Of a DNA stretch of 64,000 nt, positions 2,044-29,896 are shown in pieces. Each line of letters begins with the position of its first letter. The first letter of the stretch is position 1. The notes beneath the pieces are model-generated. The model saw nothing but the letters and a program-made list of their open reading frames with translations, was not told the origin of the DNA and made no database searches. The DNA is from Mariniblastus fucicola. GTDB lineage: Bacteria > Planctomycetota > Planctomycetia > Pirellulales > Pirellulaceae. Both the position numbers and the translations under genes were made by a program. Where the stretch lies: assembly GCF_008087665.1 (NCBI RefSeq), contig NZ_CP042912.1, positions 2,232,001 through 2,296,000 of the forward strand, given 5' to 3'.

Positions 2044-5000
2044 CTATTTCTTTTTGCGACGTTTTTCGCCGTCGAAGTCAAAAAGCTGCCGCGCGAAATC
2101 GTACTTCAGTGAAGAATCCGACGCAACAAAATCGTGCTTCAGTGAAAAATCGGACGCAAAACAGACTTTGTCACGGTCGTCGTCACGTGACTTGAGCAGG
2201 CTGAAAGCGGTGTCGATCGTCGGCAACTGATCGTCCCTAAGTGCCGGTTTATTGTCGGGGAGCTTTTGCAAGCCGGCTCCGCCATTGTTGATCGGAGCCG
2301 TAATCAGATTCAAACCGAAGAAGCCGGAAAGGTTGTTTCGCACGATGCTGACGTCGCTCGCATTGACGCGACCGTCGCGGTTCATGTCGTAACGATTTTC
2401 AATTCCAACAGTGAAGAATCCGGAAAGGTTGTTTCGGACCAAGGAGACATCGTTTGCGTTGACCCGAGCGTTGGAATCTGAGTCGCCTGTGTCACCGATC
2501 GCATTTCCGAAGTAGAAAACGTCCGGTGCCGAGAGCCCTGTCGTTGAGTTGGCCAGCAGCACAACCTGAAGCCACGTGTTCTCGATTGCGTTGTCGGGCC
2601 ACGAGAGCAAAATCTGGTCGACTCCCTCGATCTCGCCCGGCGACGTCGAAACGGTCGGTAGCGGAATGCTGCTGGTGCTGCTCAACAATTCCCAGGATGC
2701 GACGTCGTCATTGTTGCCGACTCGGAATTCAAAATCGTCTACATTCAGGGACGATTCAAGCCCCGCGAACTCAACGACGACTCGATTAATGCCGTGTTCG
2801 AAACTCGTGTAGTTTGCAAACGTTGCGGTTTCACCTGGAAGCAGCGGGACTTTGTCGCTGGCCAGTGTTTCTTCGCCAAAGCTTGACTCGCCGTAGCTCA
2901 CGCCGCGAGAACGGACGTTGGCGACTGCGTTGATCGCAAACGTTGTTTCTGAAGCAGCGCCGGCGGAATCCGTTCCCGTGATCGTCACCGTGTCTGAGGT
3001 GTGGACTTGAGACGGCGTGTAAGTCCAGCTCCATGTTCCGTCATCGTTGAGCGTGACGTTGCCGATCGATGCAGTCAAACCAAGCGTTTGATGGTCGGGC
3101 TCGAACCATGTTCCGGTATTCGTCATCTCATCGGCGACATTGCCAGAGAGTGAATCGTTTTGCGTCGACAAAATCGGAGCGTAGTTCAAAGCTTCGACTG
3201 GCAAGTCGATCACAACGCTGGAGTTGCCGGTCGCGTCGACGGTGACTGTCGCCGAATACGTTTCACCATCGTATTGCACCAGCACATCGTAGTTGCCTCG
3301 GAACGCGTCGACCGACATTGCGCCATTGCGTGTCGACCCCTGAACGTCCGTCCACCAATCGCCGAACACGAGGTCTTCATAGGCCTGACCGTTGGGCTTG
3401 ATCGAGAAATCTGAGCGATATAAAGCAGCGTCGGGAAGCCAATGAGAACTTTCCCAGAATCCCCAGTGGAGAAACTCGGTCACCGAAGACTGGCTGAACG
3501 CCATCGTCATATAGTCGCGCAAATAGTCGGCCTGAAGCTGCTCGTTGGTTGAATTAACGTCGAACTCCGTGATCGCGATCGGAACATCGAACTCCGAATG
3601 GTACTCGTCCAGCAGATCGGCAAAGACCGTGATGTCTGTCAGATTGGCGTCCGAATAATGGCTCTGTTCGCCAATCACGTCCAGCAAATTCTGATCAGCC
3701 AACAGACCAAGCCAGTATTCGAACACGTCGCGATGTTCGGTTCCGGAACCGTTGCCAGCGAAAATGCCAAAGTCATTGAGTGCCAGTTTGATGTCCGGAT
3801 CAAAGTCGCGAACTTGCTGATACCAGTCAACGATCACGTTGTCGCCAACGATATCCATCACGTCGTGGTTGGACCACGGTTCGTTAACCACATCCCATTC
3901 CCGAATGTCGCCGTCGAAATCTGTCAGCACCGTATCGAAATGGTCTTCAATGGTCGTCGTCAGCCATGCGTTGGCCGATGTCTCACCATCGTCGACAACG
4001 CGAGCATCGTACTCCGACCAGACGCTGTCGGGCATGAATTGCCGGCTGGGCCAAATCAGATTGTGGCCTCTCAAATAGATGTCGTTGTCGATCGCAAAGT
4101 CGACGCCCTGTCGGGCTCGCGCAGGGTCCTGCAAATAGCCAGGCCACTTGTTTGAGTTCTCCATCACCGCGGCGTTAAACAGGCGTTTGATCTCGTTCTG
4201 GTACTTCAACGCCGTCGCGTTTCCGTTTGGATCCAGTTTGCCTCCGTAAGCATTGATGGCGCTGCCAAACAGGAATTCGTGCTGGTTCTGCCGCAGGCTG
4301 ACGACGGCGCCGTCGACCGGTTGGCCATTGATATCATTGACCGTGATCGTGACGGTTGACTTGCGTTCGTCTTCGATGCGTTGATCGGCTGCATCGCGCC
4401 ACGGATCAAGACCATCGCGGCCTTCGTAAGACGCAGAAGGGAAACGACTTGGGAGGTCTTCAAGATTGACCGCGTTGCTGAGATTCGACCATCGGAATCC
4501 TCCAATTTGGATCGTCTGCAAAGAATGGCCCACGTTGAAAACGGCTTGCAAGCCACCGGGCGAAAAATCTTCTCCAACGGTCAACTCATGCGAGAAAAAT
4601 TGCCAACTGCCATCCGGTGAGATCGCGTCCGAGAACAGCGTCGCGTAGGTATCGGTTCGCTGAACAGCAAAACTGGCTGCCGGGTCCGCGCCTGCGGTGG
4701 CTCGAATCCAGAACTCAAAACGCATCGTGTCGCCGTCAATCACTGCGGCGTCGTTGATGTCGACCGTCTGAATTTTCCAGTTCATGTCCGGGACCGTCGA
4801 AGTCGTAACCTCGAACGCGGTTGAGAAATCCTGCCCCGTGACCGAAGCGGTTTGCGACGTTCCCCAGTTGCCACCGATGTTGTTCAGGTAGAACGAGTTT
4901 TCCGGCGAAATCAACTGAGGCGGGCCGTAGTTGAGCACGCTGAACTGAGCGAATCGCAAGACTTGAGATTTGTGACCCAAATGGAAGCCAAAACTGGCCT

Positions 5001-6702
5001 CTCCCGCGGCGTAAGATTCGGCCGCGTAAAACGGGATCTGGATTCGCTCCCACTCATCGGTTAGCGCGATGCCCTGCGACAAGGACTTCGTGTATGGAGA
5101 CGACGTTTTTTCGAAGATCGCCGAAATCTCGCCAGGTCCGGCCAGCGATCGAGCGTAAAACTCGACCCATAGAATATCGCCTTCGTTGACCGGGCCGTTG
5201 ATCGATTGCTTGAGTTGAGCATTCCACGCGTTGGCCAACTGCCCTGCAATGTCGGCTTGGATAACGTTTCCGAAAGTAGCGTCCGTTTCCGATGTGAAAG
5301 TTCCGCCAAAGCTCGTGAAATCGCCCAGCGTTTGGCCGTTCCACAGACTCGTTCCGCCCGCCGGAGCCGAAACGTCATCCTGCAAGTTCCCGTACGCAAT
5401 CCGCTGGCTTTTGAAACCGACGGTGTATTCCGGGCCGGCCTGCAGTTCGACGTTCAACGATTCGCTGCCTTCGGTTTCGCTGTCTGAAATCGCGTTGATT
5501 TCGAGCGTCACCGAGCTTTGTCCAGCTGGGATGTCAATGGAGTCGCCGGGGCTCTCGAAATCCGAGCCTTCAACTGCGTCGCCGAACGTTTGCAAATAGA
5601 CTCGCAGTGAGTTTGCTGTCGGACCAGAACGCGTGATCGTGAATTTGGCGGGTGACGCAGAGCCCTCTGCCACGTTCGGCGTGTCCGAAAAGATTGCGAC
5701 TTCGGCGACTTGCGGAGAAAGATCTCCCGCGTCGATCACTTCGATCGTATCGCTGCCGGGCTTGATCCAGCCGACGGACAGATGATCATCGCCACCGGAT
5801 TCTTTATGCAATGCTTCGATGAAATATTCCTGGCCGGCATTCAAATAGACAACAGCCGATCGCTGAGTTGGCGACGCATCCCACTCACGAATTCCAGTCG
5901 CCGAATCGACCGACGCGATCAGGAGTTTTTCTGACTCAGAGTTCGTGTTCGACAGCCATAACTCTGCCGATTCATCTGCTGAGACAAAGAAAGTGTAGGG
6001 CCCGGTTTCCGATGGATGCACGTATCCGTAGATTCTCCGCCCGTAGTCCGTCAGGCTCGAATCCGTTTCCTCAAAGTCGCCGATGAAAGAAGTCAGGTTT
6101 GGCGAATTGGGAAATTCCGCCAACGAAGTCAAATCGGAAACGTCGCTTCCTGCAATCCCGTTCCACCGGTCGAAGCTGATCTGGCCGCGCTGTGAAGGAA
6201 AGAGCTGACCTTGCGGAATGATCTCACGCGATTGGCTTGGGCTCTCCCACTCCAGATCGACAAACGCTTCTCCAGCGACGTCCACGTACTCCAACTGAAT
6301 GTCGTAGCGACGCCCGGCGATCAGTTCGATCGAAGCCCTTTCATCGGCCAGCGAACCGCTTTCAAGTTGGTCAATCAAAAGTTCGCCGTTGACCCAGAGT
6401 CGGACGCCATCGTCGGCGTTGACGATCAAGTCATGTGTTTCCGTGAAACGAGATTCGACCTGGCCAGACCAGCGAACGGCAAAACCGTCGTCAGGAATTG
6501 AGGAGTTTGGCGAACCAAATCCCCAGTTGACGGAAACGTGTTCCTCGACCGTTGAATAGACCGGATTTGAGAGCGTCGTCGAATCATAGAACTGGGCTTG
6601 AAGGCCGATTCCTGCGGCCAGCATCGATCGCGATTCAAGTTTATCAAAACTGTTCAAAAAATTTTTACGGGAGCGCAACTGCAATCGGTTCCAAAGTGTC
6701 AT
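2044..6702 (-). CDS. secreted multidomain GH10 endo-1,4-beta-xylanase with dockerin
   Basis: Predicted secreted xylan-degrading enzyme of about 1552 aa. The open frame extends to 6801, but ATG 6702 (MTLWNRLQLRSRKNF) is preferred because the SRSMLAA motif, a planctomycete N-terminal signature, follows soon after it. Order of domains: two PA14-like regions (about residues 35-320), a Calx-beta-like region (VAEGSASPAKFTITRSG), two carbohydrate-binding-like beta regions, then a GH10 barrel at roughly 815-1100. The GH10 acid/base Glu lies in DVVNEPWS and the nucleophile in ITEFDVNS. A cadherin/Ig-like segment and a type I dockerin (two DxNxDGxVNxxDVSxVRNNLSG repeats) follow. The tail carries a duplicated 11-residue unit and ends in KRRKKK. 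Planctomycetes are not known for classical cellulosomes, so the dockerin may serve another surface assembly. Function is confident; binding-domain assignments are approximate. Confidence 0.9.
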   Translation of the reverse strand: MTLWNRLQLRSRKNFLNSFDKLESRSMLAAGIGLQAQFYDSTTLSNPVYSTVEEHVSVNWGFGSPNSSIPDDGFAVRWSGQVESRFTETHDLIVNADDGVRLWVNGELLIDQLESGSLADERASIELIAGRRYDIQLEYVDVAGEAFVDLEWESPSQSREIIPQGQLFPSQRGQISFDRWNGIAGSDVSDLTSLAEFPNSPNLTSFIGDFEETDSSLTDYGRRIYGYVHPSETGPYTFFVSADESAELWLSNTNSESEKLLIASVDSATGIREWDASPTQRSAVVYLNAGQEYFIEALHKESGGDDHLSVGWIKPGSDTIEVIDAGDLSPQVAEVAIFSDTPNVAEGSASPAKFTITRSGPTANSLRVYLQTFGDAVEGSDFESPGDSIDIPAGQSSVTLEINAISDSETEGSESLNVELQAGPEYTVGFKSQRIAYGNLQDDVSAPAGGTSLWNGQTLGDFTSFGGTFTSETDATFGNVIQADIAGQLANAWNAQLKQSINGPVNEGDILWVEFYARSLAGPGEISAIFEKTSSPYTKSLSQGIALTDEWERIQIPFYAAESYAAGEASFGFHLGHKSQVLRFAQFSVLNYGPPQLISPENSFYLNNIGGNWGTSQTASVTGQDFSTAFEVTTSTVPDMNWKIQTVDINDAAVIDGDTMRFEFWIRATAGADPAASFAVQRTDTYATLFSDAISPDGSWQFFSHELTVGEDFSPGGLQAVFNVGHSLQTIQIGGFRWSNLSNAVNLEDLPSRFPSASYEGRDGLDPWRDAADQRIEDERKSTVTITVNDINGQPVDGAVVSLRQNQHEFLFGSAINAYGGKLDPNGNATALKYQNEIKRLFNAAVMENSNKWPGYLQDPARARQGVDFAIDNDIYLRGHNLIWPSRQFMPDSVWSEYDARVVDDGETSANAWLTTTIEDHFDTVLTDFDGDIREWDVVNEPWSNHDVMDIVGDNVIVDWYQQVRDFDPDIKLALNDFGIFAGNGSGTEHRDVFEYWLGLLADQNLLDVIGEQSHYSDANLTDITVFADLLDEYHSEFDVPIAITEFDVNSTNEQLQADYLRDYMTMAFSQSSVTEFLHWGFWESSHWLPDAALYRSDFSIKPNGQAYEDLVFGDWWTDVQGSTRNGAMSVDAFRGNYDVLVQYDGETYSATVTVDATGNSSVVIDLPVEALNYAPILSTQNDSLSGNVADEMTNTGTWFEPDHQTLGLTASIGNVTLNDDGTWSWTYTPSQVHTSDTVTITGTDSAGAASETTFAINAVANVRSRGVSYGESSFGEETLASDKVPLLPGETATFANYTSFEHGINRVVVEFAGLESSLNVDDFEFRVGNNDDVASWELLSSTSSIPLPTVSTSPGEIEGVDQILLSWPDNAIENTWLQVVLLANSTTGLSAPDVFYFGNAIGDTGDSDSNARVNANDVSLVRNNLSGFFTVGIENRYDMNRDGRVNASDVSIVRNNLSGFFGLNLITAPINNGGAGLQKLPDNKPALRDDQLPTIDTAFSLLKSRDDDRDKVCFASDFSLKHDFVASDSSLKYDFARQLFDFDGEKRRKKK
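2096..2161. repeat. 33-bp tandem duplication in the xylanase tail
   Basis: Two adjacent 33-bp units, 2096-2128 and 2129-2161, differ at only a few positions. They lie in frame in the 3' end of the xylanase gene and encode two 11-residue units (around FASDFSLKHDF and VASDSSLKYDF). The length keeps the reading frame, so this is an in-frame tandem duplication in a low-constraint C-terminal tail. Confidence 0.85.
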
Positions 6703-28786: not shown

Positions 28787-28824
28787 AAAAAAGAACCCCC
28801 GACTTCATACCCGAAAGTCGGGGG
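28787..28824 (-). terminator. intrinsic terminator of the permuted-tRNA operon
   Basis: Read on the minus strand, a perfect 10-bp stem (CCCCCGACTT at 28824-28815 with AAGTCGGGGG at 28805-28796) with a 9-nt loop is followed by TTCTTTTTT (28795-28787). The T-run is only on the minus-strand exit side, so it terminates transcription coming from the 29.9-28.9 kb unit. Confidence 0.88.
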
Positions 28825-28883
28825 CGGTTTGCACTGGCGCTAAGGCGACTCGTTTACTTTTTCCGTTTAAACCAGACATCAAT

Positions 28884-28980
28884 CTAAGCCTGAGCGCTCT
28901 GCCATTAAGCCATCCCCGCAAAAAATGGTGACTCTTCTGCAAGAGCGGGGAACGGGAGTCGAACCCGTACTTCATCAGTT
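28884..28980 (-). tRNA. circularly permuted tRNA-like gene B
   Basis: Read on the minus strand, the 3' half comes first: anticodon-stem strand CTGAT (28978-28974), variable loop GAAGT, T-arm ACGGG-TTCGACT-CCCGT (28968-28952), 3' acceptor strand TCCCCGC (28951-28945) and a discriminator T (28944). No CCA is encoded. After a 24-nt linker (28943-28920) the 5' half follows: acceptor GCGGGGA (28919-28913), TG, a 4-bp D-stem GCTT/GAGC with the D-loop AATGGCA, and the anticodon-stem strand CTCAG. Acceptor pairing GCGGGGA/TCCCCGC is perfect and TCAG pairs with CTGA. The anticodon is uncertain: CTTAGAT (UAG) is one reading, but it is not clean. An ordinary linear tRNA cannot be drawn from this order. 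A tRNA-derived pseudogene is the alternative. Confidence 0.8.
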
Positions 28981-29041
28981 ATCGTGTCTGGTCTTTGATT
29001 CAACGAGTGACGGTGCGAAGTCAATCTGGAGCAATAATCTG

Positions 29042-29135
29042 AACTTGATGCGATGCCTCTGCCAATTGGGCTATCCCGACATGGTTCAATGTTGAAAAGT
29101 GTCGGGAGCAGGACTCGAACCTGCACTGTGTCGCG
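29042..29135 (-). tRNA. circularly permuted tRNA-like gene A
   Basis: Same reversed order as gene B, directly upstream of it. Minus strand: anticodon-stem strand GCGA (29134-29131), a short variable loop, T-arm GCAGG-TTCGAGT-CCTGC (29124-29108), 3' acceptor strand TCCCGAC (29107-29101) and discriminator A (29100), again without CCA. A 19-nt linker (29099-29081) leads to the 5' half: acceptor GTCGGGA (29080-29074), TA, D-arm with GCC/GGC stem and TTGG loop, and the stem strand TCGC (29053-29050). GTCGGGA/TCCCGAC pair perfectly over 7 bp and TCGC/GCGA over 4. The loop next to it reads ATCAAGT (CAA if standard), but numbering is ambiguous by one. The 3' half begins just after the stop codon of the preceding protein gene. 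Confidence 0.8.
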
Positions 29136-29137
29136 GG

Positions 29138-29154
29138 TTTAGTTTAAGACTAAA
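29138..29154 (-). other. hairpin between the protein gene and permuted tRNA A
   Basis: On the minus strand TTTAG and CTAAA form a perfect 5-bp stem around the 7-nt loop TCTTAAA, starting 1 nt after the stop codon of the preceding protein gene. Its dimensions mimic an anticodon arm but position 33 would be C. It may be a processing signal, or the true anticodon arm if the permutation point of A is at 26/27. Confidence 0.5.
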
Positions 29155-29155
29155 G

Positions 29156-29896
29156 CTAAGACTGGGCTCCAAACACAAAGTCAAAGACCTTGTTTCCAAT
29201 TGTGACGCTGTCCACTTCCATCGAGTTTGCTTCTTCGCGAGCGAACTTGACGCCTTCCTGAAGCCGACGAAGGCGTTCAGTGATTTCGTTCTTCTCCTGT
29301 GCCGCGAGAGCACTGGAAAACTTTACGGTTCGCCATTCGCCAACCTTCACGTCCTCGTGATACATCTCGACCTGAGCCGGGTGTTTTTCAGTCGCTTCGT
29401 ACAGGATGTGGCTGCGCGGAACTTTCTTCGTTCGGTTACTCACCGTCGGTTCTGTCGCGTAGCAGTCCGCGTTTTCGTCCCACGTCCACGAATCTGCCGG
29501 ATCGAGCACCGGGATTTCTTTGACAAATGCGTGCAGATCCGTCAGCTGTTTTTCCAGAAACAACAGCCACGTTACTGGAACCTGTTTCAGAATCACCGCG
29601 TCGTCCACTTTGACATCAGCCTTCGCCTGGCAGTTTCCCCAATCTTGTGTCGCGGTCACGTCGAACAGGTCGTTCAAAGCAGAGCGTGCATCGGCCAGAG
29701 CCTGCCGTGATTTGTACTGAACGTTTTTCTTTTCGGTAGGCTGCGTTTCACCGTCTTCGTCGCTTGGCGTGTATCGGCGCGAGATGCCTTCGAAGAGAGC
29801 TGACTTTTGCAGCAGCTTGTAAACTTCCGTGATCGCTTTCTGCGCCTGTGTTTTCTTGCCGCTGACAACCGCGACAATCTGATTTAGCTTCGCCAT
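29156..29896 (-). CDS. uncharacterised protein associated with permuted tRNAs (DUF7873-like)
   Basis: 246 aa, soluble, start MAKLNQIVAVVSGKK. From memory it resembles a family of unknown function also seen in actinobacteria (DUF7873-like); I cannot confirm this. Visible features: a Lys/Gln-rich N-terminal helix (KTQAQKAITEVYKLLQK), an SRRYTPSDEDGE block, DVTATQDWGNCQAKADV, the helix VTWLLFLEKQLTDLHAFVKEIPVLDP, a basic NRTKKVPRSHILYEATEKHPAQVEMY segment, and a C-terminal helical region ending VFDFVFGAQS. No signal peptide, membrane segment or known catalytic motif. Its stop codon is followed at once by the permuted tRNA-like genes, and the last codons contribute to a possible RNA helix with them. 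This suggests an RNA-linked role (binding, maturation or use of these RNAs), but that is inference from position only. Confidence 0.75.
   Translation of the reverse strand: MAKLNQIVAVVSGKKTQAQKAITEVYKLLQKSALFEGISRRYTPSDEDGETQPTEKKNVQYKSRQALADARSALNDLFDVTATQDWGNCQAKADVKVDDAVILKQVPVTWLLFLEKQLTDLHAFVKEIPVLDPADSWTWDENADCYATEPTVSNRTKKVPRSHILYEATEKHPAQVEMYHEDVKVGEWRTVKFSSALAAQEKNEITERLRRLQEGVKFAREEANSMEVDSVTIGNKVFDFVFGAQS

Follow-up and report, generated by a model that had tools for sequence, protein, structure and literature searches.

Twin Y-RNA-like RNAs with permuted tRNA-like heads downstream of DUF7873 genes in Mariniblastus fucicola and phages

Anatomy of the locus

We analysed a stretch of 64,000 nucleotides (nt) of the planctomycete Mariniblastus fucicola (GCF_008087665.1, contig NZ_CP042912.1, positions 2,232,001 to 2,296,000), called the window below, whose own numbering is used for the features of this locus. 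Its minus strand carries a cassette whose first gene (29156..29896) encodes a 246-amino-acid (aa) protein of the family DUF7873 (Pfam PF25283, expect value (E) 3e-107). Directly downstream, on the same strand, two RNA units span 29166-28854, the 5' end of the first overlapping the last codons of the DUF7873 gene, and a likely intrinsic terminator of the cassette (28795..28825, minus strand) consists of a 12-pair stem and then TCTTTTTT. The number of terminator-like sites is no evidence taken alone, since the region has 4 of them vs 2.4 in shuffled sequences. DUF7873 and RNAs of this kind are adjacent also in other genomes and phages. A preliminary description, made from the letters alone, had seen here a tandem minus-strand pair of permuted transfer RNA (tRNA)-like genes, and both the pair and the permuted order were recovered.

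Each unit presents an anticodon-stem strand, the T-arm, the 3' acceptor strand, a linker, the 5' acceptor strand, the D-arm and the other anticodon-stem strand, in this order and all on the minus strand. In unit 1 (29019..29166) the anticodon-stem strand GCGA (29134-29131) is the partner of TCGC (29053-29050). Between them are the T-arm (29108..29124), the 3' acceptor strand TCCCGAC (29101..29107), a linker of 20 nt counting the base of position 73 (29081..29100), the 5' acceptor strand GTCGGGA (29074..29080) and positions 8-9 with the D-arm (29055..29073). Unit 2 (28854..29013) has the mutually paired anticodon-stem strands CTGA (28978-28975) and TCAG (28893-28890), and within them the T-arm (28952..28968), the 3' acceptor strand TCCCCGC (28945..28951), a linker of 25 nt, position 73 again counted (28920..28944), the 5' acceptor strand GCGGGGA (28913..28919) and positions 8-9 with the D-arm (28896..28912). 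The T-arms, D-arms and 5' acceptor strands were delimited by reading the sequence. The acceptor strands pair perfectly within each unit, at 7 of 7 positions in both (29107-29101 with 29080-29074; 28951-28945 with 28919-28913), and NCCA follows neither 3' acceptor strand; on these two points the preliminary description was right.

Outside the head, unit 2 has an upper basal helix in which ACCAGAC (28986..28992) pairs with GTCTGGT (28877-28871), as given by folding and by helix 2 of its relatives. It is bordered on the 5' side by the internal-loop sequence AATCAAAG (28993..29000), which is AUCGA in most relatives, and on the 3' side by the conserved TTTAAACG, which together with the 3' strand of the helix occupies 28864..28877 and corresponds to TTAAA[CTA]G in viral second units. 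The basal stem of unit 1 comes from single-sequence folding only. After its head lies the motif CAGATTATTGCTCCAGA (29025..29041), and a similar motif was recognised by eye after unit 1 in many viral loci. Folding of single sequences gave z scores of -2.12 and -2.35, a weak support when taken alone, and in the unit 1 stretch the T-arm is formed in the centroid fold only, not in the minimum-energy fold. The 5' flank of unit 1 (about 29160-29135 in the window) shows periodic steps resembling CTGA, CTCA or TTGA, spaced by about 6 bases, in many viral loci.

Recurrence and covariation in relatives

A DNA search with the RNA region matched just 2 of 60 relatives, one of them being the genome itself, and relatives were therefore collected through DUF7873. 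Of 294 genomes of the phylum, 13 have the family; it is present also in 69 phage records and in 4 loci of a genome collection, 2 of them from Actinomadura. Among viruses, 479 stretches were matched and 80 loci kept, a set with some redundancy (9 duplicate proteins) and with a stop codon inside 4 of the 80 matched stretches. We applied a permuted-head scanner, which requires at least 6 of 7 acceptor pairs and favours T8, to the 900 bases downstream of DUF7873 in 78 of these loci, the other 2 being too short. At least one permuted unit was found in 70 of the 78 loci and at least two in 47, whereas the upstream sequences gave 6 of 78 and the mononucleotide-shuffled downstream sequences 0 of 78. 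The 8 misses include six loci with variant units (L052=L053, L064, L082 and L107=L108); a relaxed scanner finds the unit in L082 only, those of the others being recognised by eye.

From the viral units we built two models, neither of which contains the window. R1 comprises 26 second units with linkers of at most 26 nt (L062, L068, L074 and L077 excluded), and R2 comprises 28 of 36 candidate first units, eight with long linkers or variant D-arms having been taken out manually. Unit 1 of the window matches R2 over its full length (29166-29019, 110.1 bits, E 6.6e-21) and unit 2 matches R1 likewise (29013-28854, 85.5 bits, E 1.3e-19). Across the 294 genomes of the phylum, R1 produced 11 matches of at least 62 bits, all of them full length and all beside DUF7873 on the same contigs. 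The two units are real and conserved, and with full-length matches to both models just downstream of DUF7873 the window locus fits a DUF7873-linked group of twin RNAs. The scanner counts with their controls and the matches to window-free models also agree with the earlier judgement that chance is an unlikely origin.

Covariation was measured on two sets. The first has 17 twin loci, namely 15 of 16 short-linker loci (L074 was out of range), L106 and L119; the second has 38 unit 2 sequences, namely 37 of 38 viral ones and that of the window. Over the 54 consensus pairs of the twin loci, 93.5% of cells are paired, compared with 37.8-44.9% when partners are slid, and changes on both sides occur at 44 of the 54 pairs; none of 500 shuffles equals the real alignment on any measure. 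For the 26 pairs of unit 2, the corresponding values are 92.7% vs 35.1-49.3%, with changes on both sides at 25 of 26 pairs, a value equalled by 1 of 500 shuffles. The acceptor helices (helix 3 for unit 1, helix 4 for unit 2) are paired in 100% of cells in the twin loci and in 97.7% in the 38 unit 2 sequences. Both acceptor strands covary in relatives through GC, CG, AU and UA exchanges, the compensatory change that the preliminary description had proposed to look for. The anticodon-like helix of unit 1 is weaker, with 76.5% of cells paired in the twin loci.

In the relatives of unit 2, two basal helices, one upper and one lower, flank a conserved internal loop, AUCGA / UUAAACG, and in these two helices (1 and 2) every pair has changed on both sides across relatives. 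Viral second and first units differ in both flanks: TTAAA[CTA]G comes after 40 of 43 vs 1 of 43, and [AG]TC[GA]A lies within 55 nt upstream of 39 of 43 vs 6 of 43.

Y RNAs, tRNA genes and the place of DUF7873

A bacterial RNA with this plan is already described. In the Y RNA YrlA, a large stem made of the RNA ends tethers the Ro60-like protein Rsr, while a second domain resembles tRNA in its D, T and acceptor arms; DusA and TruB modify YrlA and PNPase binds it (excerpts of PMC8394870), and its structure 6CU1 superposes on tRNAs via circular permutation (excerpt of PMC11472068). As YrlA has the same plan, the permuted topology was already known in bacteria. The preliminary description had taken the units for permuted tRNA genes new to bacteria; what stands of this is that they are tRNA-like, permuted and two in number, while neither the tRNA-gene reading nor the lack of a bacterial parallel does.

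Both units of the window have the permuted domain of T-arm, acceptor hairpin and D-arm on a stem formed by the two ends of the RNA, as in YrlA (RF02553, 6CU1), the stem being given by covariation in unit 2 and by folding in unit 1. The score stays below the gathering threshold of YrlA, 69 bits: the Rfam model gives 19.4 bits to unit 1 and no match to unit 2 at E 1 or better. None of 16 genomes and records reaches 69 bits, and DUF7873-linked RNAs score up to 45.8 bits. The group differs from YrlA further in its linkage to DUF7873 instead of Ro60/TROVE, in the other conserved internal loop of the unit 2 stem, in the anticodon-like stem and in the NCCA of many viral linkers. YrlA is reportedly encoded near the Ro60/Rsr gene, a criterion said to go back to Chen et al. 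2014 (RNA), whereas the one TROVE match of this genome is more than 2 Mb away from the units. Tandem arrangement is a shared trait: Y RNAs of this type often come in twos, such as YrlA and YrlB in Salmonella.

A tandem pair also occurs beside the TROVE gene of M. fucicola itself. At that locus (6391063-6394260, with a frame of 617 aa) two YrlA-like RNAs adjoin the gene on the minus strand, from 478 and from 281, with 55.7 and 57.7 bits, still below 69. These RNAs match R1 partially (positions 28-126 and 22-134, 38.6 and 37.4 bits) and R2 in the head only, with 25.2 bits at best, and by eye their basal motif differs from that of unit 2. The genome apparently has two systems, one of Ro60 and Y RNAs and one of DUF7873.

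These observations concern a twin-RNA anatomy with covariation, linked to DUF7873 in phages and bacteria and mostly found in records without Ro60/TROVE. We think it probable that DUF7873, the two Y-RNA-like RNAs and the likely terminator form one cassette for a Y-RNA-like particle in which DUF7873 takes the place of Ro60. Each RNA would consist of a basal stem topped by a tRNA-like head, which is made up of an anticodon-like stem, the T-arm, the acceptor hairpin and the D-arm; with the anticodon end as the point of attachment, the halves of the head are read in swapped order and splicing is unneeded. Both RNAs would be cut from a transcript that also carries DUF7873. The protein may bind RNA, as we infer from the gene order, presumably at the conserved internal loop of the basal stem in the way of Ro60 on Y RNAs, and the head might then hold or block a tRNA-handling enzyme, for which PNPase, DusA and TruB on YrlA are precedents. 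The topology is known; the setting, with DUF7873 as the candidate partner, looks new. We found no paper naming DUF7873 and none on such RNAs beside it, in a search outside which most of the Y RNA literature lay. If this interpretation is true, permuted tRNA mimics can occur independently of Ro60, a distinct group of them accompanying an uncharacterised protein through phages, Planctomycetes and Actinomadura. DUF7873 would gain a testable role, and the phages would offer a simple system for the open question of why bacterial Y RNAs mimic tRNA.

Several results weigh against this interpretation. No promoter-like site was found on the minus strand of the region, and one DUF7873 locus, L048 (=L049), is without such RNAs in a relaxed scan and by eye. 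The consensus structure of R2 has no basal pairs, which leaves the basal stem of unit 1 without covariation support. The structure model of DUF7873 has no convincing relative of known function among the structures compared. In one DUF7873-carrying genome, an RNA beside TROVE (L043) matches R2 over its full length with 48.3 bits. TROVE was found in 4 of 40 viral DUF7873 contigs and in none of the remaining 36, which are possibly fragments and whose hosts lay outside the search.

The last two points bear on an alternative, a minor but real possibility in our judgement, in which the units are plain Y RNAs that bind an Rsr encoded elsewhere in the cell or host and DUF7873 is a co-inherited accessory. 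The head and topology are those of YrlA, the YrlA model recognises DUF7873-linked RNAs as noted, and Deinobacterium chartae, like M. fucicola, has both TROVE and DUF7873. Because the L043 RNA fits R2 and DUF7873-linked RNAs reach 45.8 bits with the YrlA model, the DUF7873-side and TROVE-side groups are not sharply separate. What speaks for a separate group is that the scores stay below the YrlA threshold in all 16 genomes and records, that the basal motif of unit 2 is a different one, and that TROVE is missing from most carriers. In the search for it (RO60 INDEPENDENCE), 7 of 24 genomes and phage records with DUF7873 had a TROVE match (1 of 8 among the phages) and the other 17 had none, a sample in which G035 and G353 are apparently one genome, having the same contig number, place and score; the 36 viral contigs point the same way. 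Two cases from phages stand beside these counts. In the Rhizobium phage RHph_TM39 (L039/L040), DUF7873 is accompanied by a TROVE gene about 5 kb off, with several permuted units upstream of TROVE, and for a Listeria phage carrying an Rsr-like gene it has been suggested that abundant RNAs nearby are Y RNAs (excerpt of PMC12282133).

The linkers of the viral units carry a signal of their own. In 44 of 109 distinct viral units NCCA comes immediately behind the 3' acceptor strand, whereas 2000 shuffles of the linkers average 3.4 and never exceed 14; the ordinary tRNAs of the same loci encode CCA in 29 of 237 cases. In 67 of the 109 the base ahead of the 5' acceptor strand is T, which makes up 26% of linker bases, and this strand begins with G in 91. 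All acceptor pairs are formed in 102 of the 109, a figure partly built in by the scanner, which demands at least 6 of 7 pairs; two of the units (the third of L062 and the second of L068) resemble by eye the junctions of tandem tRNAs. The pattern of NCCA, T and G would fit tRNA-type processing of the linker ends. An extended form of the particle, independent of Ro60, is one that we consider rather unlikely: DUF7873 would bind two tRNA mimics, the phage linker would be cut to leave a chargeable CCA end, and during infection the two-piece RNAs would influence translation or nucleases directed at tRNA. The same pattern supports an alternative for the phages, somewhat less likely again, in which the linker is cut as in a precursor tRNA; the product, a tRNA-like RNA in two pieces that ends in CCA, would be charged and would serve translation or act as a decoy. 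Two-piece transfer-messenger RNA (tmRNA), as far as excerpted accounts of it go, is a precedent: it has a permuted acceptor with a linker, and the window units could be processed likewise. They differ from it in having a full D-arm, two copies and linkage to DUF7873, and neither ARAGORN nor Rfam calls a tmRNA here. Moreover, the window units and 65 of the 109 viral units have no NCCA, and with 79 distinct 5' strands among the 109 the acceptor is too variable for one synthetase.

The position of the units directly behind DUF7873, with unit 1 starting in its last codons, could also mean that they are a regulatory element in the 3' untranslated region of the DUF7873 messenger RNA, the heads controlling its stability or translation. 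We regard this as very improbable: there are two independent and differently conserved units, their plan matches a known free RNA (YrlA, as excerpted above), and we saw no feature specific to regulation.

That the units are permuted tRNA genes, giving rise to working tRNAs by circularisation or splicing of their transcripts, is probably wrong and earns hardly any credence. When the halves of each unit were rotated and joined with CCA appended, as the preliminary description had suggested, ARAGORN called tRNAs in 64 of 64 joins, so far a likeness with the permuted genes of algae and Thermofilum, which share the order of the halves. The anticodon, however, changes with the join, and the strands due to form the anticodon loop enter the covarying basal stem in unit 2. 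This reading is disfavoured because a basal stem takes the place of a closed anticodon loop, which sets the units apart from the algal and archaeal genes. In excerpts of a 2014 review, 34 permuted tRNA genes are listed, from six algae and one archaeon only, spliced at bulge-helix-bulge (BHB) motifs (PMC3978253). The fetched stretches of the M. fucicola genome contain 62 ARAGORN tRNA genes covering all 20 amino acids. In the same genome, twelve low-score tRNA genes lie within about 2 kb (2656262-2658351), resembling a mobile tRNA array.

ARAGORN found neither an ordinary tRNA nor a tmRNA in the window, and Rfam gave nothing there at gathering score; with relaxed thresholds it returned, besides the YrlA match of unit 1, a tRNA built from halves of different units (21.7 bits) and a tRNA-Sec (19.6 bits). 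Weaker R1 matches are common: with E of 0.001 or lower, 142 of the 294 genomes have a match. The strongest of the weaker ones covers the head alone and spans two ordinary tRNAs, tRNA-Lys and tRNA-Asn. Head-only matches are not evidence for such RNAs because tandem tRNAs produce them, up to 53 bits; the R1 matches below 62 bits, some of them full length at 35-50 bits, may include more such RNAs or Y RNAs. As an explanation of the units themselves, junctions between ordinary tandem tRNA genes, or fragments of such genes, are practically negligible: the window has no ordinary tRNA, and the full-length matches and covariation contradict this origin.

The DUF7873 protein and its surroundings

The AlphaFold model of DUF7873, a confident one (mean predicted local distance difference test, pLDDT, 92.6; predicted TM-score, pTM, 0.67), shows long helices and two long strands (151-166 and 175-190). 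In an alignment of 65 of the 67 distinct viral proteins (L104 and L111 omitted) with L027-L030 and the window protein, K157 and K158, on the first long strand, are nearly invariant. No matching family was found in Phrogs or NCBIfam. Searches of the PDB gave no match below E 0.08 by sequence and none at E 0.001 by fold with Foldseek. The best VIA-align match of the model is 3kdq, of unknown function (Z 8.3, root mean square deviation 9.2, 148 residues), and the comparison with viral structure models gave one match (E 7e-4, TM 0.21). A TROVE chain is absent among the structure matches listed, which proves nothing. Two candidate assignments of the protein were dropped: Peptidase_U49 for the window protein (29156-29896), below the cut-off with E 0.0008 and seen in 1 of 70 members, and the PADLOC family CARF3, with E 0.0079.

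In the window, DUF7873 is neighboured on one side by genes that we take to be ffh, rpsP, trmD and rplS and on the other side by what is presumably a moaA-like gene. Within the genus, DUF7873 matches 2 of 28 genomes, the own genome and one with a fragment containing a stop codon, and is thus sporadic. The fragment (L182, genome G013, C69:38021-38266) is perhaps a decayed copy, and R2 finds no RNA there. A plasmid search matched 4 records, covering up to 40% of the cassette.

Other RNAs are found around DUF7873 in phages. In a Microcoleus phage (L035) the stretch immediately after DUF7873 showed no clear permuted unit, and a HEARO RNA (4950-5159, 129.1 bits) lies directly downstream of DUF7873, ahead of the next gene. 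At least one ordinary tRNA is near DUF7873 in 32 of 71 viral loci, a count without control, and in Gordonia, Arthrobacter and Rhizobium phages (L031, L032 and L036) DUF7873 is surrounded by large tRNA arrays.
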